64,000 bases of DNA from positions 1 through 64,000 of the forward strand of contig NZ_FNIF01000020.1 in assembly GCF_900103825.1 (NCBI RefSeq). The letters run 5' to 3'. The translations under genes and the position numbers were made by a program. Position 1 is the first letter of the stretch. Each line of letters starts with the position of its first letter. Below the pieces are notes generated by a model. The model was not told the origin of the DNA, searched no databases, and was given only the letters and a program-made list of their open reading frames with translations. This document shows positions 4,010 through 53,452 of the stretch, in pieces. This DNA comes from Paenibacillus sp. yr247. GTDB taxonomy: Bacteria; Bacillota; Bacilli; Paenibacillales; NBRC-103111.

Positions 4010-4164
4010 ATGTATTACCCTCCTATAGGATGAGACCATCCTAGTACAATTATTTCCAAGTTTACAAAGAATATGAGTTCGTGTTCATTTAGCCATATTT
4101 CCCTATTTGGAATGAAAGGATTGACGAAACAGAACCCTTTTGCAGCTAGATGCAGGAGGGAACT

Positions 4165-4195
4165 TTCACATAAGGGGGGTCACTTATGCTACAAT
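4165..4195 (+). promoter_or_regulatory. Candidate extended -10 promoter of PucR-type gene
   Basis: TATGCTACAAT contains a TACAAT -10 (4190-4195) with an upstream TGC, the extended -10 form. A weak TTCACA lies 19 bases upstream. The start codon is about 47 bases downstream. Confidence 0.5.
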
Positions 4196-4242
4196 AGAGA
4201 GATAGAGATAGAAGATGCTATGGGAGTAAGGGGAGATTACAG

Positions 4243-5358
4243 ATGGATTGGGAGCGAGTAAAAGAGCGTTTGGAAGCGGTTTTACAGTTGCCTATGCAGA
4301 TTGGTTTGTTACCCGAGGCAGATTGGCAGCATTTGGCCGAAGAGCAGGAAGAGAATCGGGAAAGTTTTAGCCGAAGCGTTATGCGTGGTCAGGATGTGCT
4401 GTTTTATTTATCCAAAGAACATAAAGATATTCGCATTCTGCAAGTATTCGGAGCAAAGCTCACGGCATCTGAGCGTAAGCTGGTGGAAATGACTGTAGAG
4501 TCAAAGCAAACACAAGAAAAAAGGCAGTGGGGTGCTTTCTTATCTGAAGATGAAAGAAAAGCGCACCAATTAAGAGATTGGCTGCTGCAGCAGATGGAGC
4601 GCGGTTCTACTTATGCGGAGCTGCCGGATGCGCTTGCTTCACAATCCTCTTTGTATTCGACGAAAATTCCGCTGCTCTTATATGGGGATTACTCTCAAAA
4701 TCAAAGTGTTTCCTACGCAGAGCTGAAGAAACTCTTGGAGTCTTTCTTCGAGTCGGAGATTATCCTGATTCCTTTACTGGAAAAAGAGTGGCTAATCCTA
4801 GCGCCGGAAGGTCTGCTAACAAGCGGCAGTGAGGAGCGAGAAGGTGACGAGGAGGAAAGCGTAGAGCAGATTCTCGACGCCTTTGGGTCAGGCTTGTATG
4901 AAATGCTTGCAAATGAGTGGGTAGGTGAATGTCATCTAGCCATTGATTATCCGGTAAAACCCGCGAAATCGCTGTATGCCACGATACTCAAGCTGCGGGA
5001 GACCATTATGCTGGGGCGTTCCTTTCATGTAGGCAGCTTTATTCATCTTCGTTGGGAGCTTCGATTGGAGAAGCTGCTGCATTTGATTGAAGAAGAGGAA
5101 AAAGCTGAATTCCTGGAACAGGTGCTGCGCGGTACAGACCATGCACTCGATGCAGAGACGGTGACGACGCTTGAACATTTCTTCACACTTGACTGTAACG
5201 TTAGTGAAACCGCGAAGAAGCTATATATTCATAGAAATACCTTGTTATATCGTTTGGACAAGTTCAAAAATGAGACAGGGCTAGATGTGAGAACGTTTAA
5301 TCACGCGGTATTAGTGAGACTTGCATTGCTATTGTACAAAGTAACGAAAAGAAAGTGA
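4243..5358 (+). CDS. PucR/CdaR-type helix-turn-helix regulator
   Basis: A 371-residue protein whose C-terminal end (about residues 309-365) is the PucR/CdaR-type HTH, with the segment NVSETAKKLYIHRNTLLYRL followed by TGLDVRTFNHAVLVRLALLL. The N-terminal 300 residues are acidic and less conserved and probably form a sensing domain. PucR-type proteins control purine, sugar-diacid or similar catabolic genes. The ATG follows GGGGAG with seven bases. It sits just upstream of the MsmX-like sugar ATPase gene, a common pairing in Paenibacillus, but whether it controls that gene cannot be read here. Ligand unknown. Confidence 0.82.
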   Translation: MDWERVKERLEAVLQLPMQIGLLPEADWQHLAEEQEENRESFSRSVMRGQDVLFYLSKEHKDIRILQVFGAKLTASERKLVEMTVESKQTQEKRQWGAFLSEDERKAHQLRDWLLQQMERGSTYAELPDALASQSSLYSTKIPLLLYGDYSQNQSVSYAELKKLLESFFESEIILIPLLEKEWLILAPEGLLTSGSEEREGDEEESVEQILDAFGSGLYEMLANEWVGECHLAIDYPVKPAKSLYATILKLRETIMLGRSFHVGSFIHLRWELRLEKLLHLIEEEEKAEFLEQVLRGTDHALDAETVTTLEHFFTLDCNVSETAKKLYIHRNTLLYRLDKFKNETGLDVRTFNHAVLVRLALLLYKVTKRK

Positions 5359-5468
5359 TTTTTTTGTAGGGATTGTGCATAGTCAGTCCGGCATCCGTAG
5401 GGTAAGATGAGTATAGTTAAAGTTGATAAATAAGTTTTGGAACGATAAACCGTAGGGGGAATGAAACC

Positions 5469-6599
5469 ATGGCAGGCGTACGTTTAAATCATATCGTTAA
5501 AAAATATTCTGGTGCAGAAGAATCCACAGTTAAAGATTTCCATCTTGAAGTAGAAGATAAAGAGTTCGTCGTATTGGTTGGAGCATCCGGTTGCGGAAAA
5601 TCCACAACTCTTCGTATGATCGCAGGATTAGAGGAAATCACTGAAGGTGAACTTTACATCGGAGACCGCCTTGTTAATGATGTAGCTCCTAAAGACCGCG
5701 ATATCGCGATGGTATTCCAATCCTATGCCCTTTATCCGCATATGACTGTTTATCAAAACATGGCATTCGGCTTGAAGCTTCGTAAATTCAAAAAAGCAGA
5801 TATCGATGCTCGCGTTCGTGAAGCAGCGAAAATCTTGGATATCGTTCACTTGTTAGATCGCAAACCAAAAGCTCTCTCCGGTGGTCAACGTCAACGTGTT
5901 GCCTTGGGTCGTGCGATTGTTCGTGAGCCACAAGTATTCTTAATGGATGAGCCGCTTTCCAACTTGGATGCGAAACTTCGTGTACAAATGCGTGCGGAAA
6001 TCACAAAATTAACAAAACGTCTTGGTGTTACTACGATCTATGTAACGCATGACCAAATCGAAGCTATGACAATGGGCGATCGCATCGTTGTTATGGATAA
6101 AGGTATTATTCAACAAGCAGCTACACCTGAAGAAATCTACAACTTCCCAGTGAACATCTTCGTTGCGGGCTTCATTGGATCCCCATCGATGAACTTCATG
6201 ACAGGTACATTGACACAAGAAGGAAGCGGCGTTTTCTTCAAAGCAGGTACTGTGAATGTTGAAATTCCAGCTGGTAAAGCACAAGTGCTGAAAGATAAAG
6301 GTTTCGTAGGTAAAGAAGTGATTCTGGGTGTTCGTCCAGAAGACATTCACGAAGAGCCCGTATTCTTGGAAGCATCACCTAACACTGTATTCAACGTGAA
6401 TGTGGAATTGACTGAGAACTTGGGTCATGAAATGTACTTGTACCTTAACGGTATTGGCGCTAACACTGTAATCGCACGTGTTGACGGGCGTTCAGGAATT
6501 AAAGAAGGCACAAACGTTAAATTGGCTTTGGATATGAACAAAGTTCATTTCTTTGATAAAGATACAACATTATCCATCTTAATTAATCCTAATCTATAA
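5469..6599 (+). CDS. msmX: Sugar ABC transporter ATPase, MsmX/UgpC type
   Basis: A 376-residue ATP-binding subunit of the CUT1 carbohydrate ABC importer group. Walker A GASGCGKST is at residues 38-46, the signature LSGGQRQR and Walker B VFLMDEP follow, and the C-terminal 130 residues form the TOBE/OB-fold regulatory domain. In Firmicutes MsmX is a shared ATPase that energises several sugar importers encoded elsewhere, which fits the absence of permease and binding-protein genes here. A strong ribosome site (GGGGGAATG) precedes the ATG and a clear terminator follows, so it is a single-gene unit. Codon choice is noticeably optimised compared with the PucR gene before it, consistent with high expression. 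UgpC and MsmK are alternative names. Confidence 0.9.
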   Translation: MAGVRLNHIVKKYSGAEESTVKDFHLEVEDKEFVVLVGASGCGKSTTLRMIAGLEEITEGELYIGDRLVNDVAPKDRDIAMVFQSYALYPHMTVYQNMAFGLKLRKFKKADIDARVREAAKILDIVHLLDRKPKALSGGQRQRVALGRAIVREPQVFLMDEPLSNLDAKLRVQMRAEITKLTKRLGVTTIYVTHDQIEAMTMGDRIVVMDKGIIQQAATPEEIYNFPVNIFVAGFIGSPSMNFMTGTLTQEGSGVFFKAGTVNVEIPAGKAQVLKDKGFVGKEVILGVRPEDIHEEPVFLEASPNTVFNVNVELTENLGHEMYLYLNGIGANTVIARVDGRSGIKEGTNVKLALDMNKVHFFDKDTTLSILINPNL

Positions 6600-37893: not shown

Positions 37894-40755
37894 ATGATTA
37901 CAGATAAAGAAATAGTAAGTTTCATGCAAGAAGAGGCGTATAAGCCTATGTCCTATAAAGAGCTTGAGAAACATTTTGGGATTGAAAGTGCGAGCGAGTT
38001 TAAGGATTTTATTAAATTGTTAAATCAATTAGAAGAAAGTGGTCACATCGTCAGAGGCGGGAATGACCGCTATGGCGTTCCGGAACGAATGAATTTAGTG
38101 AAAGGTAAGCTGCAAGCTCATGCGAAGGGCTTCGCTTTCTTAATTCCAGAGGATCGAGAACATCCGGACGTATACATTAATGCACATGATTTGAATACCG
38201 CGATGAACGGCGACATTGTATTTGTGAAGATCACTGCTAGAAGTCAAGGCGGAGGCCGCTTAGAAGGCGAAGTTGTGCGTGTCATTACTCGTGCGAATAC
38301 GCAGATTGTAGGCGTTTTTCAGAGTCAGGAGACGTATGCATTCGTTATCGCTGATGATAAGCGTGTGTCACGGGACATTTTCATCCCTCAGCATGCTTTC
38401 AATGGAGCTGTTACAGGGCAAAAGGTCGTTGTAAAGATTGTTAACTATCCAGAAGGCCGTTCTGCCGCTGAAGGGGAAGTTATTGAGATTCTCGGGCATA
38501 AGGATGATCCGGGCGTTGATATCCTCGCTATTGTACGTAAATTTCAGCTGCCTGAGGCATTCCAAGAGGAAGTGCTTGCTGAGGCTGATGCCGCACCTGA
38601 TTCCATTAGTGAGGAAGAGATTATTGGGCAAGGACGTCGCGATCTTCGTTCGAAGCGAATTGTGACGATTGACGGTGAAGATGCTAAGGACTTAGATGAT
38701 GCGGTTAATGTGGAACTCTTGGAAAATGGCAACATTCGATTGGGCGTTCATATTGCCGATGTGAGTTATTATGTGCGTGAAGGTACTGCGTTGGATATTG
38801 AGGCTTATAACCGCGGATGCTCCGTGTATTTGACCGATCGTGTTATTCCGATGCTGCCGCATCGTTTATCGAATGGGATATGCTCGCTTAATCCTCGTGT
38901 GGATCGGTTAACAATGTCTTGTGAAATGGAGTTTGACGAGAATTTAAAAGTAGTAAATCATGAGATCTTTACGAGTGTTATCAAAACTAGTGAGCGGATG
39001 ACGTATACAAATGTCCGTAAATTGTTGACGGGTGAAGCAGAACCGGAAATCGTTGAGCGCTATGCGTATTTGATGGAAGATTTCAAACGCATGGAAGAGT
39101 TATCAGCTAGGCTGCGATCCAGAAGGATGAAACGCGGGGCTATTGATTTTGACTTTGAGGAGTCCAAAATTATTGTTGATCCGGACGGCAAACCGATTGA
39201 TATTGTGAAAAGAGAACGCTCCGTCGCGGAAATGATGATTGAAGAGTTCATGCTGGCCGCGAATGAAACCGTTGCTGAGCATTTTTCGTGGATGAAGGTG
39301 CCTTTCTTATACCGTGTTCATGAGGACCCTGACGCAGAAAAGCTAATGAATTTCATGGAGTTTGTTACGAACTTCGGGTACTCCGTTAAAGGTAAAGGGA
39401 ATTCGGTACATCCTCGAGCTTTGCAGACGTTGCTGGAAGAGATCAAGGGAACTCCTGAGGAGACCGTTGTTAGTAAAGTTATGCTTCGCTCGATGAAGCA
39501 GGCTCGTTATGATGCGCAGAGCTTGGGGCATTTCGGTTTGGCAGCGGAATTTTATTCGCACTTTACATCGCCAATTCGACGTTATCCCGATCTAATAATT
39601 CATAGAGTGATTCGTGAGGTACTGGAAAGCGGGACTTTATCGGATACCCGTCATGAATATCTAGCTTCGCGGATGAGTGATATTGCACAACAATCCTCAG
39701 AGCGTGAGCGCGTTGCTGTAGATGCAGAACGTGAGACGGAGGCTCTGAAGAAAGCTCAATATATGCTGGATAAAGTCGGCGAGGAATTCGAAGGAATCAT
39801 TTCTAGCGTTACAGGTTTCGGCATGTTTGTGGAGCTCGATAATACGGTTGAAGGCTTGATTCGTTTGAGCGATTTGACGGACGATTATTACAATTATCAT
39901 GAGAGACAGCATGCCTTGATTGGTGAGCGAACATCCAAGGTGTATCGGATTGGGGACAGCACCAAGGTGCGTGTTGCCCGTGTGAATATGGATGAGCATA
40001 CGATTGATTTTGAATTGGTCGATATGAAGCCTCGAAGCAGCGCTGGCGGGATTAGCCGAGGAGGCGGAGGGAAGCCTCCCTTTAAGGGTGCTGCTGGGTT
40101 TAAAGGTTTCCGTGGTGGCGGCAATGGCAAACCGGAAAAAGGCAAGGGCGGATATGCCTCTAAGGGTAAAGGCGGCTTTGCAAGAGCTCAAGGCGGGAGC
40201 ACAGATGGGCAAGGCGGAGGTAAGGAAAGATCGGAAAGAACAGGGCAACGTGGCGAGGCTGGAGGCACGAGGCGATCTGAAGGCGGAGCAGCCCGCAGAA
40301 TTGCAGGTGCTGCACGTACAGAAGGCGGAGCAGGGCAAGCGCGTGGCGAAGGTACAGGACGGGCTGCAGGAGCAGAGCAAGGACGCGGTGAAGGCGGAGC
40401 AGGGCAAGGCAAACCGCGGCGCGGTAAGGCGGGAAGCACGCCGTGGAGCGAAAACCGCGGCAAAGGCGGGGCTGGACGCGGGAAGGCGCGCGGTCCTAAG
40501 CTGAGCGAAGGCGGCAGCTTGAGCTCAAGGCTTGAATCTGTCGGCGCGGGGCGGACAGAGAGTGGCGCTGGCCGCGGCGAAAGCAGGCGCGGCCGCGGTG
40601 GGATTGCGCTTGGGAGCGAAGCCCAAGCGGGCGTTTCGCCGACGGAGCGCAGCGGCGGCAGTGATTGGGCGAGCGGCGTGAACGCGCTCGCCAAGGGCGG
40701 CCGTCGACGCAGTGACGACGGCGGAAGTGGCGATAGCAAGAAGCGGCGGAGATAA
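37894..40755 (+). CDS. rnr: Ribonuclease R with extended low-complexity C-terminus
   Basis: A 953-residue 3'-5' exoribonuclease. N-terminal HTH and cold-shock domains (about residues 1-240), RNB catalytic domain beginning near residue 260 with [12 protein letters not shown] (metal-binding aspartates), and an S1 domain at about 629-710 ([15 protein letters not shown]). From about residue 712 onward some 240 residues are Gly, Arg, Ala, Lys and Glu rich, with recurring EGGA, GRGE and GQ-type runs; Bacillus RNase R ends about 780. RNase R degrades structured RNA and, with tmRNA, faulty mRNA. The tail DNA is far more GC-rich than the core. A terminator overlaps the stop codon. Confidence 0.95.
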
Positions 40756-40773
40756 CGCCGCTTCTTGCTTTTC
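40736..40773 (+). terminator. Terminator overlapping the end of rnr
   Basis: A perfect 13-bp stem (GCAAGAAGCGGCG with its complement) around a 7-nt loop followed by TTTT. The 5' arm encodes the last residues of RNase R (SKKRRR) and the stop codon lies in the loop. Confidence 0.8.
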
Positions 40774-40793
40774 CGCCACGATCTTGCTACAAT
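40765..40793 (+). promoter_or_regulatory. SigA promoter of smpB
   Basis: TTGCTT (40765-40770), 17-bp spacer, TACAAT (40788-40793) with extended TGC. The -35 overlaps the 3' arm and T-run of the rnr terminator. Confidence 0.6.
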
Positions 40794-40849
40794 AGATTGC
40801 ACATTGTAGCAGTTTTTACCTGCAGGAACGTGCGGGAGGAGGATCTCTT

Positions 40850-41332
40850 GTGGCAACGAAAAAGGCAGATGGCAAATTACTTGCCCAGAACAAAAAGGCT
40901 TCACACGACTACTTTATTGAAGAAACGTATGAATGCGGTCTTGTCCTGACCGGCACGGAGATCAAATCCTTACGGGCAGGTAAAGCAAACATAGGCGATA
41001 GCTTTTCGACTATTCGCAATGGAGAAGCTTTTGTACACAACATGCATATTAGCCCTTTTGATCAAGGTAACCGAAGCAATCCGGAAGATCCAACACGGAC
41101 GCGAAAGCTGCTCTTAAAAAAGGCGCAGATTGCCAAAATGCTAGGTCAGGCAAAGCAAGAAGGCTATACCCTCGTTCCATTGAAGGTCTATATCCGAAAT
41201 GGTTACGCCAAGCTTTTGGTCGGCATAGGTAAAGGGAAGAAACAGTTCGACAAGCGTGAATCGGCAGCGAAAAAGGATGCACAACGAGATATTCAACGTG
41301 CGTTGCGTGAGAAGCAGAAGATTGCCAGATAG
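40850..41332 (+). CDS. smpB: SsrA-binding protein SmpB
   Basis: A 160-residue tmRNA partner that carries tmRNA into stalled ribosomes. [32 protein letters not shown], the internal KLLLKK and the C-terminal [19 protein letters not shown] tail that probes the mRNA channel are present. Start is GTG at 40850 after GGGAGGAGG. Its RNA partner ssrA begins 167 bases downstream. Confidence 0.96.
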
Positions 41333-41382
41333 GTGGCAGCCCATACTGGAAGGCAACACCTCGACTTCCATGAACCTAGTCG

Positions 41383-41410
41383 TTCATTTCTCATGAGTAT
41401 GTGTTATACT
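41383..41410 (+). promoter_or_regulatory. Promoter of ssrA
   Basis: TTCATT (41383-41388), 16-bp spacer, TATACT (41405-41410) with extended TGT. Predicted leader of about 80 bases carries a hairpin (ACCGTC/GACGGT, enclosed by CCTT/AAGG) ending 7 bases before the mature 5' end, a possible processing aid. Confidence 0.55.
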
Positions 41411-41499
41411 AATTTAGCAGCAAAGATTTGAAAGCAATTTTGGGCTCAACATGTAACGTCTTTTACCTTCACCGTCTATGACGGTAATGAAGGCAATCC

Positions 41500-41861
41500 G
41501 GGGGTGTTCTTGGATTCGACGGGGATAGTTTGGGCACGGGTTGCGGGTAGTGGGGCCGCGTCCACTATAAAACGCTAAAGCCTATTAAATGGCAAAACAC
41601 AAAACAACTACGCTTTAGCAGCTTAATAACCTGTTAGCGTGCTCCTCCTCAGCATCGCCCATGTGACTGGGATAGGGGCTCAACTATAGTGGGATACGAC
41701 GTTTGGTCTCCGCCTGGGGTCGGACGTAGGAAGACAATCAGGCTGACCCAACGCATAGCCGGTTACGGGGCGCTGCTCGGGTGACATCAAAACTGTGACT
41801 ACACCCGTAGATGCCTGTGTGGCGATATTTTCGGACAGGGGTTCGACTCCCCTCACCTCCA
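41500..41861 (+). ncRNA. ssrA: Transfer-messenger RNA
   Basis: The tRNA-like ends pair: GGGGGTG at 41500 with CACCTCC ending at 41860, and the T-arm is GGGGTTCGACTCCCC. The tag frame at 41591-41626 starts at the resume codon GGC and encodes GKTQNNYALAA then TAA. The 3' CCA is not encoded (ATA follows the last stem base). Pseudoknot-forming segments fill the rest. It works with SmpB upstream and ClpP proteases. Confidence 0.95.
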
Positions 41862-41868
41862 TACAATG

Positions 41869-41897
41869 AAAAAAGCACCCGATGAGGGTGCTTTTTT
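41869..41897 (+). terminator. Terminator of ssrA
   Basis: AAAAAAGCACCC and GGGTGCTTTTTT pair around GATGA. Related copies of this terminator recur at 43586 and 45001. Confidence 0.9.
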
Positions 41898-41932
41898 CAT
41901 TTGTATGGGTATGTTGGAGGAGAACCCCTTGA

Positions 41933-41994
41933 GGGTTCAGTCCGCGCTGACCGGAGCGTGCAGAGGGAGCACGGCATTGAAATATACAGCTAGG
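41933..41994 (+). repeat. ssrA downstream repeat, copy A
   Basis: The segment beginning GGGTTCAGTCCGCGC and ending GGCATTGAA...TAC.GCTAG is found again at 42779-42841. No reading frame is recognised. It starts 72 bases past the tmRNA gene. Confidence 0.7.
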
Positions 41995-42093
41995 GTAGTC
42001 ATTGTTGGTTAGGCTTCGTTAGTCAAAGCCTAAATAGTATTTCGTTTTGGGTGGTATTTATTTGGACTAGTAGGTAATAGAGGAAAAGCCCTC

Positions 42094-42119
42094 CCAATGA
42101 AGAATGAAGAGAGGGCTAC
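42094..42119 (-). terminator. Terminator of the Cys-rich gene
   Basis: AGCCCTC and GAGGGCT pair around a loop of about 16 bases; on the minus strand a TTTT run follows. It lies just downstream of the minus-strand gene ending at 42135. Confidence 0.6.
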
Positions 42120-42134
42120 TTTTATGAACCTTAA

Positions 42135-42629
42135 TTACTTCTGAATTGTCTTCTGCGCGGTCTTACCAGCGAGCAGAGGTGCGGCATAATTTCGACGCGC
42201 TCTGAATGCTCCCGTTGGATTTTGGGTAAATCGCATGGTCGCAGTTCTTCTGCAATCCTCAAAGCCGCCGCCAAATAGCCTACAGCGGAAGGTAACTGTC
42301 ACGCTTAAATCCAATGTTCCAGTTCCTTTGACGACCAGAGTGTTATTACCTATTTTTCGTGTATCCCCGACTACCTCAAGATTACCGGATAGCGGTACAG
42401 CCGTCCAATCATAAATAATATCGCTGTCAGCCCCTCTGCATAACGCACCGCGACACTCCAAATCGGCATCCGCCCGATATACAGCGCTCACCCCAGCTAA
42501 GGTTTGTGTAATCCTTCGAATGTTCGAATCGCTGCATGAACAAATAAAACCGCGTCGTCTTCGTCTTTTACATCTGCACTGCTTATGGCAACTGCACCCC
42601 ATAAATTGACACCAATCCTTCCCATCCAT
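42135..42629 (-). CDS. Cys-rich hypothetical protein
   Basis: A 164-residue protein of unknown family. The N-terminal 32 residues hold seven cysteines (7, 12, 14, 18, 20, 30, 32) and a run of six basic residues, which suggests metal binding or disulphide cross-linking as in spore surface proteins. The middle part (about 40-140) alternates hydrophobic and polar residues like a beta-sandwich and has four more Cys. The ATG at 42629 follows TAGGAAA; a second ATG ten codons in is possible. It sits alone between two copies of the ssrA-end repeat, so it may be horizontally acquired. Confidence 0.6.
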   Translation of the reverse strand: MDGKDWCQFMGCSCHKQCRCKRRRRRGFICSCSDSNIRRITQTLAGVSAVYRADADLECRGALCRGADSDIIYDWTAVPLSGNLEVVGDTRKIGNNTLVVKGTGTLDLSVTVTFRCRLFGGGFEDCRRTATMRFTQNPTGAFRARRNYAAPLLAGKTAQKTIQK

Positions 42630-42753
42630 AGATTTCCTATAAGATATTCTAGGAAGCGCAATGTGTATGGGTATTTGGATAAGGTAAAACAGCCTGAATT
42701 AGTGCGAATTGGGGAGGATTTTGAAGCAAGGATACACCCGCCGCGAAGCGCTG

Positions 42754-42841
42754 GCTGTGTGGCGATATTTTCGACAGGGGTTCAGTCCGCGCGGACTGGA
42801 GTGCAAGCGGAGGGAGTAGGGCATTGAAGAATGTACCGCTA
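42754..42841 (+). repeat. Copy B: ssrA 3'-end fragment fused to downstream repeat
   Basis: Bases 42754-42783 match 41814-41845 of the tmRNA gene (GTGTGGCGATATTTTCG, one G lost, then ACAGGGGTTC). At GGTTC the match jumps to the downstream repeat (AGTCCGCGC through GGCATTGAA and GCTAG). The jump equals a 92-base deletion between two GGTTC copies relative to the ssrA locus, which shows a duplicated, then shortened, ssrA end. Confidence 0.75.
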
Positions 42842-42855
42842 GAACCTCTTCATTT

Positions 42856-43500
42856 TCAGAATTGCTTATACATAGTGGATCTGTGAATGATCTTTATGGA
42901 CTTGTTATAAACCAACAGGATGTAAACGACGTCTAGAATAAATGTAAGTATGTACATCATATTTAATAATAATGAATTTGGGAATAGGGAATAGCACCAA
43001 ATAGAAGCACACAGGGTACCAACCATTTTAGAATAGGCGATGTATATGGATTGGCCGTGTAAATCTTGTTTCAGCAGCATTTTTATAAATAGGATGGACA
43101 TCATTACATTGATTCCAAATGCGGAATACTTGCCCTCATGATCATGAAATTCGGTAGCAATTCCATAGTGCAGCAGCAGGGCAATGACAAGTAAAGAAAG
43201 GACAATAGTTTTTATTGGCCATGTTGGATATAGTCTTTTTGAATAGTAGAGAAATTGGAACAGGATAATGCAGTCTAATAAAAAGAATAGTAGAGTTACG
43301 ATTTGTTGGAGTGGGTTGAAAGGCATGACGACGGAAAATAGAAACTCCCAAGTGATATTTGCACATAGGGCGGCTAGTGGCATTCCACAAGTTCGATCCC
43401 GAAACCCTTTATATATAATCATCATGTAAGCGATTGTCCAAAAAAGGACTATCCCAAACTGCAGAAACCGTTCTATTTGTAGTGGGAAAAGGTGTTCCAT
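42856..43500 (-). CDS. Seven-helix membrane protein, possibly Pyr4/PaxB-like terpene cyclase
   Basis: A 214-residue protein with about seven hydrophobic helices and short loops. The segment GMPLAALCANITWEFLF (residues 39-55) has the NxxWEF pattern with an intramembrane Glu52, and the last helix has LDVVY with Asp190. As I recall, integral membrane terpene cyclases of the fungal Pyr4/PaxB type have about seven helices and such a Glu and Asp pair. This is recollection plus topology only. No prenyltransferase or epoxidase gene is near. Flanked tightly by repeat copies B and C. Upstream context gives a plausible but weak ribosome site. Confidence 0.5.
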   Translation of the reverse strand: MEHLFPLQIERFLQFGIVLFWTIAYMMIIYKGFRDRTCGMPLAALCANITWEFLFSVVMPFNPLQQIVTLLFFLLDCIILFQFLYYSKRLYPTWPIKTIVLSLLVIALLLHYGIATEFHDHEGKYSAFGINVMMSILFIKMLLKQDLHGQSIYIAYSKMVGTLCASIWCYSLFPNSLLLNMMYILTFILDVVYILLVYNKSIKIIHRSTMYKQF

Positions 43501-43585
43501 ATGGAGTGAATCGCATCCTTTCAGGGAATTCTCTTTAATAAATATGATTCATTTAACTTGTCTATGCATATTAAGCTATCACAAA

Positions 43586-43645
43586 ATGAAAAGCACCCGC
43601 GGGTGGTTTTTTCATTTGTATGGGTGTTGGAGGAGAACCTCTTGA
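43586..43645 (+). repeat. Copy C: ssrA terminator and flank
   Basis: Bases 43586-43645 match 41866-41932 with a few gaps: the terminator stem (GCACCCG...CGGGTG, then TTTTTTCATTTGTATGGGT) followed by GTTGGAGGAGAACC and CTTGA. The stem is partly degraded. Confidence 0.75.
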
Positions 43646-43686
43646 AAAACGTGGATGGATACCATCCCATAATGTAATGAAGCAGG

Positions 43687-43715
43687 TTGACAAAAGATAA
43701 TAAAACATTTATATT
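43687..43715 (+). promoter_or_regulatory. SigA promoter of arsR-type gene
   Basis: Perfect TTGACA (43687-43692), 17-bp spacer, TATATT (43710-43715). The predicted transcription start, about 43722, coincides with the likely start codon at 43723. Confidence 0.75.
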
Positions 43716-43732
43716 TAACCGTATGGTTAAAT
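43713..43732. promoter_or_regulatory. Palindromic operator overlapping -10, transcript start and ATG
   Basis: ATTTAACC and GGTTAAAT form perfect 8-base arms around GTAT. The spacing and half-sites are typical of ArsR-family operators and the ATG of the repressor gene lies inside, so autorepression is expected. Confidence 0.75.
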
Positions 43733-44064
43733 GTCGCGATGAAGATATTTTAAATGGTGTTTTTTCAGTTCTTTCTGATCCCACGAGACGAGAGATGATT
43801 ACGCAGTTAGCCAAAGGCGAGATGACGGTCATGAAATTAGCCGAGCCTTTTAAAATGTCATTACCTGCGGTGTCCAAGCATCTAAAGGTTTTGGAAAAGG
43901 CTGGTTTAGTTTCTGTGCGGAAAGAAGGGAGGTATCGCTATTACTATTTAAATCCAGCATCAATTGACTGTGCGAATCAATGGTTAACGGATTTACGGCA
44001 ATTCTGGACTTCACAATTATCAAGACTTGAACGCTTTTTGGATCAAAATTCGAACAATGATTAA
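43723..44064 (+). CDS. ArsR-family repressor, partner of SRPBCC protein
   Basis: A 113-residue winged-HTH regulator with VLSDPTRREMITQL and the recognition helix MSLPAVSKHLKVLEKAGLV. It lacks the CVC metal site of arsenic sensors and has no obvious metal-binding motif. This subtype commonly precedes AHSA1/SRPBCC genes, as here. ATG at 43723 gives the usual family length and opening (MVK). No Shine-Dalgarno sequence precedes it and the predicted transcript starts at or one base before it, so the mRNA may be leaderless. An upstream in-frame TTG at 43687 is really the -35 box. Confidence 0.88.
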   Translation: MVKCRDEDILNGVFSVLSDPTRREMITQLAKGEMTVMKLAEPFKMSLPAVSKHLKVLEKAGLVSVRKEGRYRYYYLNPASIDCANQWLTDLRQFWTSQLSRLERFLDQNSNND

Positions 44065-44078
44065 AGGAGTTAATAAAC

Positions 44079-44543
44079 ATGATTAATATTCAAGCAGGTA
44101 AATTTACACTTCAACTCAACCATAACTACAAAGCCGACAGAGATAGCGTATTTCAAGCATGGACGAAACAGGAACAGTTGAAACAATGGTGGGGCCCAGA
44201 AGGTTTTACGACGACCATTGATCGAATGGATGTTGTTGAAGGAGGAGGTTACCGTTTCATTATGCAAGCTCCCAATGGAGCTAATCATACTATTGGCGGC
44301 AAATATATTGCGATTATCCCTAATGAGAAGCTAGTTTTTACTTGGAAGTGGGAGCATGAAGGTTCTAGCGAGGAACAAAAGGATACGTTGGTTACCATTG
44401 AATTTGTTGAGCAAGGAACCGGAACTGAGCTTGTCATTACGCATGAGAATTTCTCCACTAAGGATGAAGCAGAGAATCATAAAAATGGCTGGAGCAGTTC
44501 TTTAGAGGGCAGCTTAAAGAAATATTTGGAGCAGCATATATAA
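44079..44543 (+). CDS. SRPBCC (AHSA1-type) protein
   Basis: A 154-residue START-like fold protein. The pattern RDSVFQAWTKQEQLKQWWGPEGF and the later YIAIIPNEKLVFTWKWE are typical of the AHSA1/CalC subgroup, whose members bind hydrophobic ligands. It follows the ArsR gene by 14 bases with AAAGGAG as ribosome site, so both are one operon. Ligand unknown; the regulator may sense the same compound. Confidence 0.88.
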   Translation: MINIQAGKFTLQLNHNYKADRDSVFQAWTKQEQLKQWWGPEGFTTTIDRMDVVEGGGYRFIMQAPNGANHTIGGKYIAIIPNEKLVFTWKWEHEGSSEEQKDTLVTIEFVEQGTGTELVITHENFSTKDEAENHKNGWSSSLEGSLKKYLEQHI

Positions 44544-44563
44544 TAAATTTGGAGGTCATTTCA

Positions 44564-44986
44564 TTGACTAGTCAAAACTATAAAAATCACCGCAGATTCC
44601 ACCCGATTTATCATTATTTTTTAACTTTACTCTTGCTAGCTATATTGATAGGAGTTGCCGCTCTATTAATTAGAGAAGGTCTAAGCCTCTCCTCCATTGT
44701 AATCTTGCTCATCTTCGTCTATATAACAGTAAGTTTCTTCTTAATGAGATCTTACCCATTAAAAGCTCAGGACAGAGCCATTAAAGCAGAAGAGAATCTT
44801 CGACATTACGTGATGACAGGACAATTACTTAATTCGCGGCTTACGTTTAATCAAATTGCCGCCTTGCGTTTTGCTAGCGATGCGGAGTTTCCAGAACTAT
44901 GCCAGAAGGCAGCATCCCAAAATTTAAGCTCAAATGATATTAAAAAGGCGATTAAAAATTGGAAGGGCGACATTGACAGAGTTTAG
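44564..44986 (+). CDS. DUF6526-type membrane protein (copy 1)
   Basis: A 140-residue protein with an N-terminal YKNHRRFHPIYHYF motif, two hydrophobic helices (about 18-40 and 44-64) and a conserved cytosolic part RSYPLKAQDRAIKAEENLRHY and LRFASDAEFPELC. Function unknown. TTG start at 44564 with GGAGG eight bases upstream; five codons upstream another TTG is open but lacks this spacing. Third gene of the ArsR operon. A closely related gene lies at 53012. Confidence 0.8.
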   Translation: MTSQNYKNHRRFHPIYHYFLTLLLLAILIGVAALLIREGLSLSSIVILLIFVYITVSFFLMRSYPLKAQDRAIKAEENLRHYVMTGQLLNSRLTFNQIAALRFASDAEFPELCQKAASQNLSSNDIKKAIKNWKGDIDRV

Positions 44987-45000
44987 TTGCTCACTGCTCG

Positions 45001-45040
45001 AAATGAAGAAGCACCCGAGAGGGTGCTTTTTTCATTTCGT
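45001..45040 (+). terminator. Terminator of ArsR operon, similar to the ssrA terminator (copy D)
   Basis: AAGCACCC and GGGTGCTT pair around GAGA and six Ts follow. The sequence ATGAA(G)AAGCACCCGAGAGGGTGC and the following TTTTTTCATTT and GGGTA closely match the ssrA terminator region at 41866. Confidence 0.85.
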
Positions 45041-45185
45041 AGGGTACACCAGACGTAATTTTCTCAAATACTTGGCATCACCCGAATTCTTATTTTTCGT
45101 AGTTCCCCTAATGTATGAATATTTCTGCATATTTTGCGCACCATAAATTGGAAATAGTAAAAGTAATCTTAGGGACTGAAGAAAT

Positions 45186-46721
45186 ATGGGATTTTTTCGT
45201 AACTTAATCAGAGTCAAAAGACGCTATCCACCTCAACAAAAAGCAAATCTGCAAATTTCGAAGCCACTTAGTATGGATCTAGATGAAAATTTATTAGATT
45301 TGCAAACACTATTCACCCTAGCCCCCGATCTGATCACGCGCCAGTTTCAAATTAAATCAACCCAAAAACGTGCTGCCCTTGTCTATCTAAACGATTTAAC
45401 TGATCGAAAAGCAATCAATAGTGATGTTCTACAGCCGCTCATGCAAGAAATTGTTGGTGATATGCCTATCGATCAAATAGTAACGGTCGGCAGTATCCAG
45501 TCTGTACACGATTTATCTCAAGTTGAACAAGCCATTCTGCATGGGCAGAGTGTCCTATTTGTGGAGGATAAGAATACAGCCGATCTTTTAGACACACAAG
45601 GGTGGCCACAAAGGGCAATTCAGGATCCTCAATTGGAAGCGTCCTTAAAAGGATCTCATCAAGGCTTTGTTGAAACAGGAAGCATAAATATTGCCTTAAT
45701 TCGAAGATACATACCAAATCGAGAATTGAAAATAAAAGAATGCATCGTAGGTGAGAGGGGGATGACAAGGGTCAGCATTTTATATTTAGCTGATGTTGCC
45801 CAACCGGAAGTTCTTCAAGAGTTGGAAAAAAGGATTCAAAAAATTGATGTTGACGCCATCCTAAACACAGGCGAACTAGAAGAATTCATTGAGGACAACC
45901 CCTATTCGCCATTTCCTCACTTTTCCATTACAGAGCGGCCCGATTCTGTCGCCTCACAGATTTTGCAAGGAAGGCTTGCTGTTGTCGTCGATCGGTCGCC
46001 TTTCGTTCTGATTGGACCTGCAAATTTTGCGATGTTTTTCCAAAGCACAGATGATTACAACATGCGTTGGCAAGTTGCATCTTTTCTGCGAATCCTAAGA
46101 TTTTCCGCTTTTTTTGTGACCATTTTTTTACCTGCGATCTATATAGCTGTCATTTCTTTTAATTTTGAAGTGATTCCTATGCAGTTACTATTGTCAGTCG
46201 GCGAGTCAAGAGCAAGCATTCCATTCCCGCCTATCATAGAAGCCTTTATCATGGAGATTACTTTGGAAATGCTTAAGGAAGCAGGGATACGCCTTCCAGC
46301 CCCAATTGGGCAAACAGTTGGGATAGTGGGCGCAATTGTTATAGGACAAGCGACAGTACAAGCGGGGATTGTGAGCAACATTATGGTGATCGTTGTCTCT
46401 TTGACTGCTTTGTCCTCGTTTATCATCCCAAGTCACGACATGTCTGCTGCCATTCGTTTGATTCGCTTCCCGATGATGCTGATTGCAGCTTTTTTCGGGC
46501 TTTTTGGGGTTGGAATAGGAATGATGGTGATGTTCGGACACCTGATTGCGCTAGAGTCTCTAGGAACGCCATATTTCAGTCCGTTTAGTCCAATGAGGTT
46601 CAAGGATTTGAAAGATTCGTTTGTTCGACTGCCTTTATTCTTTATGCGCAAGCGTCCCTTAAGCGCAAGACCAACACAAGAAAAAAGGCAAGGTTCTAAT
46701 CATTCGAAGGGTGACGGTTGA
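45186..46721 (+). CDS. Spore germination receptor subunit A (GerA family)
   Basis: A 511-residue GerAA-type protein. Large N-terminal soluble domain (about 1-290) with RRYIPNRELKIKECIVG and the ERPDSVASQILQGRLAVVVD signature, then about five membrane helices (from residue 300) including LPAIYIAVISFNFEVIP, and a charged C-terminus. Subunits A, B and C form nutrient-sensing germinant receptors in the spore inner membrane. Stop overlaps the GerB-type start by one base. Germinant identity unknown. Confidence 0.93.
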   Translation: MGFFRNLIRVKRRYPPQQKANLQISKPLSMDLDENLLDLQTLFTLAPDLITRQFQIKSTQKRAALVYLNDLTDRKAINSDVLQPLMQEIVGDMPIDQIVTVGSIQSVHDLSQVEQAILHGQSVLFVEDKNTADLLDTQGWPQRAIQDPQLEASLKGSHQGFVETGSINIALIRRYIPNRELKIKECIVGERGMTRVSILYLADVAQPEVLQELEKRIQKIDVDAILNTGELEEFIEDNPYSPFPHFSITERPDSVASQILQGRLAVVVDRSPFVLIGPANFAMFFQSTDDYNMRWQVASFLRILRFSAFFVTIFLPAIYIAVISFNFEVIPMQLLLSVGESRASIPFPPIIEAFIMEITLEMLKEAGIRLPAPIGQTVGIVGAIVIGQATVQAGIVSNIMVIVVSLTALSSFIIPSHDMSAAIRLIRFPMMLIAAFFGLFGVGIGMMVMFGHLIALESLGTPYFSPFSPMRFKDLKDSFVRLPLFFMRKRPLSARPTQEKRQGSNHSKGDG

Positions 46722-47827
46722 TGAAAAAGTATGCGCTGAACGATATCACATTGATACAATATATCTTGATGATTCATGGGACTCAACTGGGGATTGGAAT
46801 ATTGTCTTTACCCAAGGATTTAGCAAAGTTGGCCGGAACGAATGGCTGGATTTCCCTCCTAATCGGTTGGGCGATATCCGTATTATCTAGTGTGATTATC
46901 ATTCAGGTTATGAAAAAGCATCCAGAGGATACGGTGTACGATTTGATACCTCGATACTTCGGAAAAGTATTGGGGACTGTTATCGGAATCTTTATCATTT
47001 TCTATTTTTCTTTTGTTTTTTTCACAAGTATTTATGCATCTGTCACGGTGGTCAATTTGGAGCTATTGTCTAAGACCCCAAAATACCTGGTTGTCTTGTT
47101 GTTTGTCATACCGATCTATACGATTGGACGGAATCATATTCGTGTCTTGGCAAGATATGCGGAATTCACCTTCTGGGGTTTCTTATGGCTGGCTATTGTC
47201 TATGTGTATGCATTGAGGGGGGGCCAGGGCCATTGGTTGAACTTACTTCCTGTTTTAGAAGAGGGCTGGAAACCGGTGCTGAGTGCTGTAAAACCTACAA
47301 GCCTGTCTTTCTTGGGTTTTGAAACTGCGTTTATCTTGTATCCCTTCTTAAAGCATAAAGAATCTGCGATTAAAGGGGTTATCATTGGCAACACACTGTC
47401 GTTTGTGATATACATGCTGGCCATTTTGGTTTGCTTTCTCTATTTTTCGCCAGACGATATCACGTCCTACACTTTCCCTACTTTAAAAGTTATAAAGACT
47501 ATTGAATTTCGCTTTCTGGAACGATTTGAACTCATCTTTTTAGTGGCCTACGTCTTTATGATTTCTAGAGTTTGGATTTTCAACGTGTATTGCGCGGTGT
47601 TCGGAATAAGTCAATTACTTGGTAAACAAGATCACAAGCCGTACTTGAGAATAATGTTGATAGGTGTGTTCCTTTTGTCCATTTTTTATAATCCCGGTAA
47701 TGATCAGATTGATCAACTAAAGGAGCTGTTGAACAGTATGGGGATATATTTCGCCTTTGCCTTCCCGTTGTTCTTGTTGGTATATACAAGAATATTCAGC
47801 TTGTTCCGAAAAGGAGATTTGGGATGA
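46721..47827 (+). CDS. Spore germination permease subunit B (GerAB type)
   Basis: A 368-residue APC-superfamily membrane protein with about ten helices, starting with the typical ISLLIGWAISVL region and GIGILSLP near residue 28. GerAB subunits bind the germinant. The ATG at 46721 overlaps the GerA stop (TGATG) with AAGGGTG ten bases upstream. The stop overlaps the GerC start in an ATGA junction, so three subunits are coupled. Confidence 0.93.
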   Translation: MKKYALNDITLIQYILMIHGTQLGIGILSLPKDLAKLAGTNGWISLLIGWAISVLSSVIIIQVMKKHPEDTVYDLIPRYFGKVLGTVIGIFIIFYFSFVFFTSIYASVTVVNLELLSKTPKYLVVLLFVIPIYTIGRNHIRVLARYAEFTFWGFLWLAIVYVYALRGGQGHWLNLLPVLEEGWKPVLSAVKPTSLSFLGFETAFILYPFLKHKESAIKGVIIGNTLSFVIYMLAILVCFLYFSPDDITSYTFPTLKVIKTIEFRFLERFELIFLVAYVFMISRVWIFNVYCAVFGISQLLGKQDHKPYLRIMLIGVFLLSIFYNPGNDQIDQLKELLNSMGIYFAFAFPLFLLVYTRIFSLFRKGDLG

Positions 47828-48948
47828 AGCGCTCCTGTATATTCCTTCTAGCAGCAATGTGCATTCTTTTGATGCCAGGATGTTATGACCAGATGAATTT
47901 GGAGGATGCCTCCATAACACTCATGCTGGGATTGGATTTGGACGAAAAGAATAACCTTGTCGTCTATACGCAAAGCCCTGTATTTTATAAAGAAGCCAAG
48001 GAAAAAACAGAGAAAACAGCAGTGAAAGCTGTCTCGATTCGAAAATCACGTCAGAAACTGGATGCCATTCTTACAGGGTTGACGATAGGCGGTAAAAATC
48101 AGTCAGTACTGATCAGCAAACGACTGCTTCAACAAAAGGAGTGGTATCGCCTATTTGACCTTTTTTATCGTGAACCTAAACAACCCGTAAGCTCCCGAGT
48201 CATAATCGTAGATGGTCCGGTTGAAGAAGTCTTTAACTTTAAACCGAAAGATAAACCTCGGCTCGCCATGCATATGAGAAAATTGATCGATACCGCAAAT
48301 AAAAGAAACGTCACGGTAATAACGAATTTGCAGGAGTTACGTCGACAGATGAAAGATAAGGGGATTACTCCTTCGATAACAGAAATAAAAAAGGACGTAG
48401 AGCAGATCAAGGTTACCGGAACAGACTTGCTTAATAAACAAGGAGAATATGCAGGACATCTTTCGTTGGATGAAAGCATGTATTTGTTGGTTCTACAAAA
48501 TCAAATGAATGGTGAGCTATCTTTCTCCATACCAGTCGCAGAAACATCGAATGGTGAAGATAATAACAATCGCATGGTTTCTTTTAATGCTGTGAATGTT
48601 AAGAAGAAAGTCATAGTAGCATACTCCGAAAATACGTTTCAGTATGACATAAATATCAAAATTCCTATTGAGATGACTTCAATAGAAGGGGATAATAATT
48701 TCGATATGAAGGAGCATAAAACCCAATTGGAAAATCAGATTACGAAAGAACTTCAGAAACAGTTTGATTCTTTAATAAAGAAATGTCAGGAAAATCAAGT
48801 CGATCCATTCGGTTTCGGGCTCTATGCACGAGCCTACCAATCTTCTGCATGGAAGGTGGTACAAAATGAATGGGGGAAATCATTTTCCAAAGCAAAGGTT
48901 CGTGTTACACCGCAAGTCAAAATTAAATCATTTGGAGTAACAGAGTAA
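47824..48948 (+). CDS. Germinant receptor lipoprotein subunit C (GerAC type)
   Basis: A 374-residue lipoprotein. The signal peptide ends with lipobox LMPGC, Cys at residue 20, which should be modified by Lgt (gene at 7750). The following YDQMNLEDASITLMLGLDLD and the C-terminal RVTPQVKIKSFG are characteristic of Ger(x)C. GerC subunits attach outside the spore inner membrane and stabilise the receptor. Operon closed by a terminator at 48988. Confidence 0.93.
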   Translation: MKRSCIFLLAAMCILLMPGCYDQMNLEDASITLMLGLDLDEKNNLVVYTQSPVFYKEAKEKTEKTAVKAVSIRKSRQKLDAILTGLTIGGKNQSVLISKRLLQQKEWYRLFDLFYREPKQPVSSRVIIVDGPVEEVFNFKPKDKPRLAMHMRKLIDTANKRNVTVITNLQELRRQMKDKGITPSITEIKKDVEQIKVTGTDLLNKQGEYAGHLSLDESMYLLVLQNQMNGELSFSIPVAETSNGEDNNNRMVSFNAVNVKKKVIVAYSENTFQYDINIKIPIEMTSIEGDNNFDMKEHKTQLENQITKELQKQFDSLIKKCQENQVDPFGFGLYARAYQSSAWKVVQNEWGKSFSKAKVRVTPQVKIKSFGVTE

Positions 48949-52787: not shown

Positions 52788-53015
52788 ATGCAAGCATTTG
52801 AAGATTGGAATCAAAAAGTGAAGTCAACGTTCAACGCTACAAGTAATGAAGTCGTATTAACAGTTATGGAAGCAGGAGAATCATTAGGTCTTTCCAAAGA
52901 TCAAATGAAACTCTATGTGGACAAAAACAAGTTAACGAAAGTGCCCATTATGAGAAGTGTTCATCGCTACTTGTTATTAAAAAGTGAAATTGATGAGATT
53001 GTGGGGAAATCATGA
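52788..53015 (+). CDS. Small HTH-like protein
   Basis: A 75-residue protein with VMEAGESLGLSKDQMKLYVDKNKLTKVPI, resembling an excisionase or MerR-type winged helix for DNA binding. No family recognised with certainty. Ribosome site AAGGGTG; start ATG at 52788. Its stop overlaps the ATG of the DUF6526 gene by ATGA, so the two are coupled. Confidence 0.6.
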   Translation: MQAFEDWNQKVKSTFNATSNEVVLTVMEAGESLGLSKDQMKLYVDKNKLTKVPIMRSVHRYLLLKSEIDEIVGKS

Positions 53016-53452
53016 AAATCGACAATCAAACCTATGCAAATCACCGTAGAATGCATCCGCTGTTTCATTTTGTATTTTCCTTGCTAGCGTTAGTGTTACT
53101 GATTTCATCCGTCATAGAACTGGTTAGATCCGTGCAATCCGGGAATCAAGTGCTTCCCGCATTTCTTTTCTTACTCATTTCTATCATTGTAGTCATTGTA
53201 TTCCTTCTGATTCGTTCCTATCCGTTAAAAGCGCAGGATCGCGCGATACGGGCAGAAGAGAGTCTCCGGCACTATGTGTTGACCCAGAAGTTACTGGACT
53301 CAAGGCTTACTATTGGACAGATTACTGCTTTACGCTTTGCTTCCGACGAGGAGTTTCCTGCGCTTTGTCAGAGGGCAGCTGCCGAGCAATGGTCACCTGA
53401 CACGATTAAGAAGTCAATTAAGAGCTGGAGAAGCGACGACTACCGGATATAG
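53012..53452 (+). CDS. DUF6526-type membrane protein (copy 2)
   Basis: A 146-residue paralogue of the gene at 44564: same N-terminal YANHRRMHPLFHFVF, two membrane helices (about 20-42 and 46-68), then RSYPLKAQDRAIRAEESLRHYVL, LRFASDEEFPALCQRA. Function unknown. Coupled to the small HTH gene upstream and followed by a terminator. Confidence 0.8.
   Translation: MKIDNQTYANHRRMHPLFHFVFSLLALVLLISSVIELVRSVQSGNQVLPAFLFLLISIIVVIVFLLIRSYPLKAQDRAIRAEESLRHYVLTQKLLDSRLTIGQITALRFASDEEFPALCQRAAAEQWSPDTIKKSIKSWRSDDYRI

Follow-up and report, generated by a model that had tools for sequence, protein, structure and literature searches.

What are the pieces of the ssrA 3' end that recur behind ssrA in Paenibacillus sp. 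yr247, separating single genes and a small operon? We analysed the 64,000-nt window (the whole stretch of DNA studied here), in which this locus comprises the following features:

41500-41861, +: ssrA (tmRNA; ARAGORN; Rfam RF00023, 190.9 bits)
41865-41901, +: copy A, terminator hairpin of ssrA (from sequence)
41896-42060, +: copy A, structured unit (90.7 bits, model R1)
41902-41932, +: copy A, degenerate inverted copy of the ssrA 3' end (GTATGGG..GGAGGAGAACCCCT; read against intact units)
42135-42629, -: Cys-rich ORF, 164 aa (ORF call; no family in Pfam search)
42752-42783, +: copy B left, displaced ssrA 3' piece with last letters GGGGTTC (repeat search, blastn)
42780-42865, +: copy B right, truncated unit body joined at GGGGTTC (32.7 bits, R1)
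42856-43500, -: Pyr4-like transmembrane terpene cyclase gene (Pfam PF25129)
43583-43645, +: copy C, terminator and inverted gene-end copy, without body (repeat search, blastn)
43687-44064, +: ArsR-type regulator (Pfam)
44079-44543, +: AHSA1/SRPBCC-type protein (Pfam)
44564-44986, +: DUF6526 protein (Pfam)
45002-45046, +: copy D, terminator only (blastn)

The ssrA gene encodes the tag GKTQNNYALAA and ends in AGGGGTTCGACTCCCCTCACCTCCA, from which the copied ends derive. The original prediction had placed pieces of its 3' end, terminator and flank at 42754, 43586 and 45001, and repeat search and blastn recovered them at 42752-42842, 43583-43645 and 45002-45046. When the ssrA end and flank were compared with the own genome by blastn, the ssrA piece of copy B (42752-42783) matched at 94% (E 4.3e-6), the flank piece joined to it (42778-42842) at 80% (E 5.4e-8), copy C (43589-43645, its start at 43583 being set by eye) at 87% (E 2.1e-13) and copy D (45002-45046) at 90% (E 6.6e-7). 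Repeats B, C and D are above chance, and chance similarity as their source was ruled out by these E-values; the same search found no copy away from the window locus. The predicted make-up held overall, except that D is a terminator alone, identical over 35 nt (45002-45036) to the ssrA terminator of the genus relative G020. The left part of copy B with its left neighbour has GCGAAGCGCTG in common with a displaced ssrA piece in G020. The copy A unit has lost its 3' gene-end copy, and its main stem is complementary at 7 of 10 positions. A covariance model detected one more diverged unit in the window genome (G000:C80:53567-53754), with no tRNA called in the 3.2 kb around it, and a pattern match placed a tRNA-Ala-like end at G000:C36:41361, on a contig where model searches gave no unit match.

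The window repeats are worn copies of a distinct, apparently undescribed folded DNA unit. This unit is gene-less, spans ~200 bp and consists, in order, of a terminator hairpin, an inverted copy of the gene 3' end, GGGGTTC or a similar sequence, a folded body of ~106 nt and a direct gene-end copy, which repeats the last ~16 nt of the gene (the 3' strand of the T-stem, the acceptor and CCA). Direct repeats of the ssrA 3' end survive as pieces in the window and reach their full 16-25 nt in relatives. The body contains invariant columns, unpaired ones included (25 sequences). We found the unit in 57 of 104 family genomes by blastn. The covariance model recognised it in at least 145 of the 392 genomes searched in the order, spread over 34 of 49 genera, and in the other 247 nothing passed the strict filters; such filters, with seven candidates scored per genome, applied to every search of more than 40 genomes, so the counts are lower bounds. 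A class search (398 genomes) added seven matching genomes outside the order, three with tmRNA in the stretch, one of these more than 800 nt away, and a phylum search gave one weak match outside the class (29.8 bits). Among the gene-adjacent loci, which like all loci studied closely were hand-picked from the matches, 23 of 50 hold 2-7 units in tandem, with about seven behind the tRNA-Ala of L106.

The unit follows two host genes. ARAGORN called tmRNA or tRNA-Ala(GGC) in the same stretch at 36 of 40, 14 of 20 and 14 of 23 loci, the last set being the named-genome loci, two of which also carry tRNA-Lys further on; with the three sets pooled, 19 of 83 loci had no tRNA or tmRNA call. No other such gene was called upstream of the unit in the loci sampled, and the distance from the gene to the start of the first unit, on the same strand, is 28-46 nt at 50 of 51 gene-unit loci. 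Repeats far from ssrA had been named as the case against an integration-site origin: a second fixed site does exist at tRNA-Ala(GGC), and some copies (such as G000:C80) lie near no called gene, but a dispersed intergenic family was not seen. The unit end tracks the variant of its host gene, as none of 1000 shuffles, which ignore kinship, did as well for either tmRNA (n=24) or tRNA-Ala (n=26). A cruder end classifier applied to 141 matches labelled nine tRNA-Ala units ssrA-like and left 47 unclassed; the 50 gene-adjacent units were therefore scored by alignment, and 45 scored best with their own gene kind, with 5 ties and none wrong. The gene-end copy was missing at the model end in the first units of L179, L183, L194, L195 and the window, and lay about 25 nt further on in L179 and L194. 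A pattern of AGGGGTTCGANNCCCCT plus acceptor gave 25 matches, spread over 12 of 13 genomes; almost all have ssrA-like or tRNA-Ala-like ends, and two are of other sequence. A shared T-arm is a candidate cause of the two-gene restriction.

The fold is backed by covariation, with 327 double-changed cells versus 117 in shuffles and double changes at 9 of 10 main-stem pairs, where A2 was fitted to the model's structure and the shuffles ignore kinship. The measure of pairs with a change on both sides was matched by 11 of 500 shuffles. A mutual-information scan returned several high pairs in the variable hairpin that are non-complementary and probably reflect misalignment.

From the anatomy, the distribution, the target restriction in sampled loci, the covariation and the agreement between unit end and gene, we infer with moderate confidence that the unit may be a non-autonomous attachment-site module of integrative elements or islands, or a non-autonomous satellite of such elements. 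Integrative elements would recombine at the T-arm and 3' end of ssrA and tRNA-Ala(GGC); a crossover there would leave the host gene whole and set the old gene end down behind the body, and tandem units could arise by repeated insertion or unequal exchange. The fold counts against an attachment site, because a plain double-strand site needs no covarying fold. Moreover, body sequences cluster mainly according to the type of locus (16 label changes versus a shuffled mean of 45), so that old, inherited RNA genes would fit too. Also counting against an attachment site are the findings, given elsewhere in this text, that no recombinase lies consistently beside the unit in the scanned loci, that the serine integrases behind ssrA go with other flanks, that phage and plasmid records lack the unit, that the membrane gene in relatives is not bounded by the repeats, and that the window genome has a unit on C80 with no tRNA called nearby and a tRNA-Ala-like end on C36 with no unit match.

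The unit could be a structured non-coding RNA or a 3'-UTR element of tmRNA and tRNA-Ala that acts on 3' ends through its inverted copy, with mobility incidental, a possibility to which we give tentative weight. The strong covariation, the two host genes with constant strand and distance and the clustering of bodies by locus argue for it, and in the body helices G-U exceeds A-C (40.5 versus 17 weighted cells; column make-up alone would give 96.3 and 77.5), a hint that one strand matters. Single-stranded DNA would give the same strand bias, however, and the gene-copy helices show A-C above G-U (81 versus 41, not normalised). A terminator separates gene from unit, the tandem number varies, and the 247 genomes without a strict match also speak against an RNA. 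A tRNA mimic charged by AlaRS was put aside, the inverted strand carrying mostly A3-U70 and not G3-U70 (few units, by eye).

We consider it doubtful that the unit represents a new class of folded-strand recombination site, attC-like and unrelated to integrons, with tRNA-type genes in the place of attI. Here the inverted and direct gene-end copies would pair on one strand; the resulting stem would mimic the 3' end of the host gene in its double-stranded form and carry the covarying body at its tip. A trans-acting recombinase would then join the folded units, occasionally along with cargo genes, to ssrA or tRNA-Ala(GGC). Integron identity itself was not supported: none of 198 genomes of the order contained an IntI integrase (TIGR02249) above the curated cut-off, though a distant or trans-acting enzyme may escape such a search. 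A profile search of 110 sources yielded 7 tyrosine-type and 14 serine-type recombinase ORFs, and no recombinase lay regularly beside the unit among ORFs of at least 100 aa. A shorter recombinase remnant, below this search size, was noticed by eye in L101.

The ssrA 3' flank is an integration hot spot. Flanks of several kinds lie behind ssrA across 30 genus genomes; five have a PF07508 serine integrase directly behind the gene (split into two ORFs in G029), and 12 contain additional ssrA 3' pieces. In G004, G008 and G016 the far end, at a distance of 30-39 kb, carries TTGTGGATTTA followed by CTCACCTCC and by the former terminator and flank. Such serine-integrase islands join at the CCA end, and their integrases pair with other flanks (AAATCCACA in G004, G016 and G028; others in G008 and G029). 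We read the window as preserving remnants, now decayed, of several insertions behind ssrA. The prediction of ssrA integration sites in stacked cassettes was thus borne out as to the hot spot, with its integrases and displaced flanks, and gave way as to the repeats, which are a degenerate structured unit and not merely leftover ssrA sites, because the unit also sits behind tRNA-Ala(GGC) in other genomes. It is accordingly unlikely that ordinary ssrA islands, each with its own attachment copy and no special unit, explain the locus: the variable cargo, the displaced ssrA ends and the integrases in relatives would suit them, but the repeats hold a conserved body of ~106 nt that is absent from ssrA.

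The genes between the repeats add to this picture. Gene calls and Pfam agree with the expected Cys-rich gene, membrane gene and ArsR/SRPBCC/DUF6526 operon, and the membrane gene, expected within about 15 and 85 bases of B and C, ends about 14 nt from the blastn end of B and 83 nt from C. No integrase was found among the genes between ssrA and ger, as had been noted. A second DUF6526 copy (53012-53452) is about 53% identical to the product of 44564-44986. The Cys-rich ORF had no tblastn match in the stretch examined behind ssrA in other genus genomes, and the Cys-rich, ArsR and AHSA1 genes occurred in none of the other genomes among the 30 over the 20 kb examined, to which G013 contributed 68 nt only. 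The membrane gene recurs in G006, G020, G022 and G027, where about 42872-43571 is matched at 85-87% DNA identity; in none of the four does a unit directly adjoin the gene, the one in G027 ending about 350 nt off. The proposed precise joins of genes to repeats therefore failed for the one testable gene. The four-part arrangement, whose presence in all relatives would have pointed to a fixed old duplication, was seen in no genus relative of the 30. The variable stretch runs past ger, and the closest block of genes that five to six of the relatives have in the same order begins near 50896.

In copy B, a 92-base deletion had been proposed between GGTTC copies; the gap is present and measures about 94 nt by recount against copy A. 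Most likely, the missing segment was a long palindrome lost by slippage between the bracketing GGGGTTC repeats, a step that the attachment-module reading would include. A similar hybrid form was seen by eye twice in L100 and also in L109 and L202, with related, more worn joins in L128 and L129. Among the copies read, this loss is confined to displaced ssrA pieces, which is the expected pattern given that the same loss in ssrA itself would destroy the gene. An intron-like insertion of the copy B body into ssrA was dropped in favour of palindrome deletion, because intact units show the same GGGGTTC-body-ACTCCCC order. Template switching can correct palindromes and could by itself hold the inverted copy of the gene end in agreement with the direct one; an old tandem duplication of the ssrA end in neutral drift, its likeness kept by such correction and slippage, is nevertheless very unlikely, as invariant body columns across 25 sequences and one model spanning 34 genera are not expected of neutral sequence.

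Searches for known families and carriers were negative. Rfam 15 returned no family over the unit at gathering score (15 loci and window positions 40500-46000), and neither phage nor plasmid records contained a match. Viral pattern scans gave 0, 1 and 0 matches, the single viral-contig match lying inside a coding frame and being taken as chance. A relic of a T-loop group I intron, or a guide RNA of a TnpB-like nuclease guided by the gene end, is highly improbable: group I introns do occupy the tmRNA T-loop and the body is flanked by the TTC and ACT of a T-loop-like sequence, but it measures ~106 nt against reported mean intron lengths of 293 and 414 bp (PMC11915505), and the group I core RF00028 gave no match in 15 loci at the gathering cut-off or in a 1-kb array at E<=5.

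Widespread, covarying and matched at its end to the host gene, the unit keeps to two alanine-accepting RNA genes in the sampled loci. Genes for tmRNA and tRNAs are classic landing sites of islands, and the reason for this choice is debated. If the unit is an attachment module, the arrays of 1-7 copies that occur naturally in soil bacteria amenable to culture would allow direct measurement of how sites are chosen, how the gene is repaired after insertion and how cassettes stack; if it is an RNA, it would found a new family with links to ribosome rescue and to alanine tRNA.

Among known systems, integron attC sites are folded single-strand sites whose stem rebuilds the recombination site, and they form arrays of small cassettes. 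Our unit shares the folded site, here predicted from sequence, and the arrayed small elements, and differs in site sequence, in target and in the lack of IntI over the cut-off in the 198 genomes of the order. T-loop group I introns, as described in PMC11915505, are likewise structured T-loop insertions, whereas the unit is much smaller, has no Rfam match and occurs in copies behind an intact gene. In PMC11109978, MRSC-65-2 is described as a repeat that covaries, has no known function and may be active as DNA; ours is also a covarying structured repeat, but one bound to two gene ends, not dispersed, and copying the gene end. Dehalococcoides, as described in PMC3146451, has genomic islands in tandem behind ssrA whose boundaries are direct repeats of its 3' end, with a conserved 15 bp motif directly upstream of each 20 bp repeat and a break inferred in the T-loop; about half of these islands lack integration genes, and the CcrB-like serine recombinase DsiB lies in 16 of 31. 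Unlike these islands as so described, no recombinase is tied to the unit and none lies between ssrA and ger; the upstream element is a covarying fold of ~106 nt instead of a 15 bp motif, and there are cargo-less tandem units and a second target, tRNA-Ala(GGC). The two systems, to the extent of that account, have in common a tandem layout, direct ssrA 3'-end repeats behind the gene, a conserved element upstream of the repeat and strain-variable cargo between repeats, the last seen here in the comparison of the window with its relatives.

The original prediction had read a series of repeats downstream of the tmRNA gene as ssrA-end att sites between stacked cassettes. These repeats were recovered by sequence inspection, repeat search and blastn, and the genes between them by gene calls and Pfam. 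The reference point for the region was as follows:

41861: 3' end of ssrA, located by ARAGORN

Copy A, which adjoins ssrA, is a ~200-nt unit with a degraded right end and scores 90.7 bits against R1, a covariance model of the unit built from 25 sequences. In copy B, a displaced ssrA 3' piece meets a shortened body at GGGGTTC (32.7 bits); copy C comprises a terminator and an inverted copy, and copy D is the terminator alone. The membrane gene among the cargo matched the Pfam profile of a Pyr4-like terpene cyclase (PF25129); it is present in four other genomes (matching about 42872-43571), with no units immediately at its edges. In 20 kb of each of the other genus genomes (hardly any in G013), tblastn found no match to the Cys-rich ORF, ArsR or AHSA1, and DUF6526 was represented by paralogues alone (~53–55%). 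A second DUF6526 gene in the window (53012-53452), ~53% identical to the cargo copy (44564-44986), belongs to a block common to five relatives. The gerA/B/C-type operon (45186-48948) is itself part of a variable stretch, and distant gerA relatives lie downstream of ssrA in the relatives G019 (39%) and G001 (29%). The window's genome also carries a second, diverged unit (L214, G000:C80:53567-53754, whereas the window itself is G000:C37; 90.7 bits) ending in CTTCACTTGCCTCCG, with no tRNA or tmRNA call in a 3.2-kb stretch around it.

All 30 genus genomes carry ssrA with SmpB upstream, and the downstream sequence is of several kinds. A rough sorting by the first 260 bases gave 9 genomes with the unit or its start (the start alone in G013 and G014, the flank of G013 being visible for 68 bases up to the contig end), 9 with AAATCCACA, 7 with a AACCCGCTC hairpin and 5 others. 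PF07508 serine integrases lie immediately downstream of ssrA in G004, G008, G016, G028 and G029 (split in G029). In G004, G016 and G008, the old flank of terminator and unit reappears 30–39 kb downstream, after TTGTGGATTTA and CTCACCTCC, so that attL and attR are clearly recognisable at the very 3' end of ssrA. Additional ssrA 3' pieces were found in 12 of the 30 genomes. The ~200-nt unit follows ssrA in G007 (in tandem), G019, G020, G022, G023 and G001 and, where read whole, ends in ACTCCCCTCACCTCCA or close to it, which is the ssrA 3' end. Intact units run from a terminator hairpin through an inverted gene-end copy (for example TGGAGACG..GGGAGGCGAACCCC), GGGGTTC and the body (AGTCCGCGCGGAC..GGAGCACGGCATTGAAATGTACCGCTAAGGT..GTCATCG..ATTTCAAT) to a direct gene-end copy.

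The unit was detected by blastn in 22 of 30 genus genomes and in 57 of 104 family genomes (13 of 22 genera). Within the order, R1 searches detected it in at least 145 of 392 genomes and 34 of 49 genera; they also matched at least 9 of 398 genomes in the class-level set (seven outside the order) and at least 3 of 398 in the phylum-level set (one, weak, outside the class). Neither 50,697 phage nor 72,556 plasmid records gave a match. When named genomes were scanned with a pattern for the unit, 56 stretches were obtained, every record being named Paenibacillus or Cohnella. ARAGORN called 12 tmRNA, 24 tRNA-Ala(GGC) and 4 none at 40 unit loci chosen from the order-wide R1 matches; 11, 3 and 6 at another 20; and 6, 8 and 9 at 23 of the 56 named-genome loci, scanned together with a viral hit, where two of the 8 tRNA-Ala(GGC) loci additionally contain tRNA-Lys and the gene–unit distance is at times some hundred to 4000 nt. 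Across 51 loci from the 40- and 20-locus sets plus the window, the first unit starts 28–46 nt downstream of the gene in 50, the exception being locus L181 (1061 nt). Units were single at 27 of 50 loci, double at 14 and triple at 6, with four at 2 and seven at 1.

ARAGORN also made permuted tmRNA calls spanning units (L105 10913-11425, L189 4350-4887, L203 3245-3818), which are presumably spurious, due to the tRNA-like ends, and a possible source of mis-annotation. Some group II introns sit right after a terminator; among the matches to such introns (L176 3013-3153 and L108 1516-2934, both minus strand), one in L176 begins ~75 nt downstream of the unit, right after such a terminator. At L097, a large serine recombinase gene (3706-5451), a candidate partner enzyme of the tRNA-Ala site, is directly followed by a 5'-truncated tRNA-Ala copy (5550-5605, by eye) with three units.

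Gene variants, among them CTTGATTCCA, CTTGGCTCCA, CGCTAGGGTCCA, ATTCCCC and ACTCCCTCG, reappear, exactly or nearly, in the neighbouring unit. When genes were shuffled 1000 times among loci of the same kind, which leaves kinship between loci in the result, the observed similarity to the direct copy was attained in 0 shuffles for both gene kinds, and that to the inverted copy in 1 and 21. Five first units (L179, L183, L194, L195 and the window) have no gene-end copy at the expected position. Bodies cluster mainly by locus type (16 label changes where shuffling averages 45, counting six rows whose type is unclear). In the nine genomes with both kinds, same-kind copies share a mean identity of 0.88 and the two kinds 0.69, the same as across different genomes of a genus (0.69). 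Judged from this grouping and these identities, units have switched between the two host genes, though not constantly.

RNAalifold predicted 19 pairs from 25 sequences, 7 showing double changes. Among 141 matches (139 distinct), 86.1% of cells were paired vs 77.6 when shuffled, double-changed cells numbered 327 vs 116.6, and a 10-bp stem showed double changes in 9 pairs; the signal was lost when pairing partners were slid along. Pairs with a double change, a less telling measure, numbered 19 vs 15.1, a value attained in 11 of 500 shuffles. Pairs of the 10-bp stem took ranks 1–4 in a mutual-information scan of 122 rows. In body helices (last pair omitted), G-U exceeded A-C (40.5 vs 17; expected from column make-up, 96.3 and 77.5). 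Because of this excess and the covariation, selection probably acts on the body as a single folded strand, either of RNA or of single-stranded DNA. In the helices made of gene copies A-C is commoner than G-U, so these copies resemble DNA repeats.

The deletion noted in copy B by the original prediction proved correct and recurrent, because visual inspection shows the same junction (ssrA piece, GGGGTTC, body) twice in L100 and also in L109 and L202, with related degraded joins in L128 and L129, and because intact units have a long palindrome of gene end, hairpin and inverted gene end flanked by two GGGGTTC copies. Slippage between these copies most likely removed the palindrome and left the copy B form, which explains why the junction was observed in displaced copies only.

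The hot spot, the unit, its two host genes, the end matching and the fold are established. We infer that the T-arm would be the place of site-specific recombination, in which the element would contribute the body as its half of the site and a putative enzyme would act in trans. The main rival, that the unit is an RNA element, we regard as less likely. The boldest reading, an attC-like folded strand, appears improbable; integron integrases scored above cut-off in 0 of 198 genomes. Among the papers listed in an open-access literature search, none has a title or abstract opening that describes the unit, and in the main-text passages covered, two genome-wide RNA surveys (PMC8632094, PMC11109978) do not mention Paenibacillus. 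For recombination at the T-arm, the Dehalococcoides system (PMC3146451) offers the nearest parallel, having an inferred break in the T-loop and a 15-bp motif at the corresponding position.
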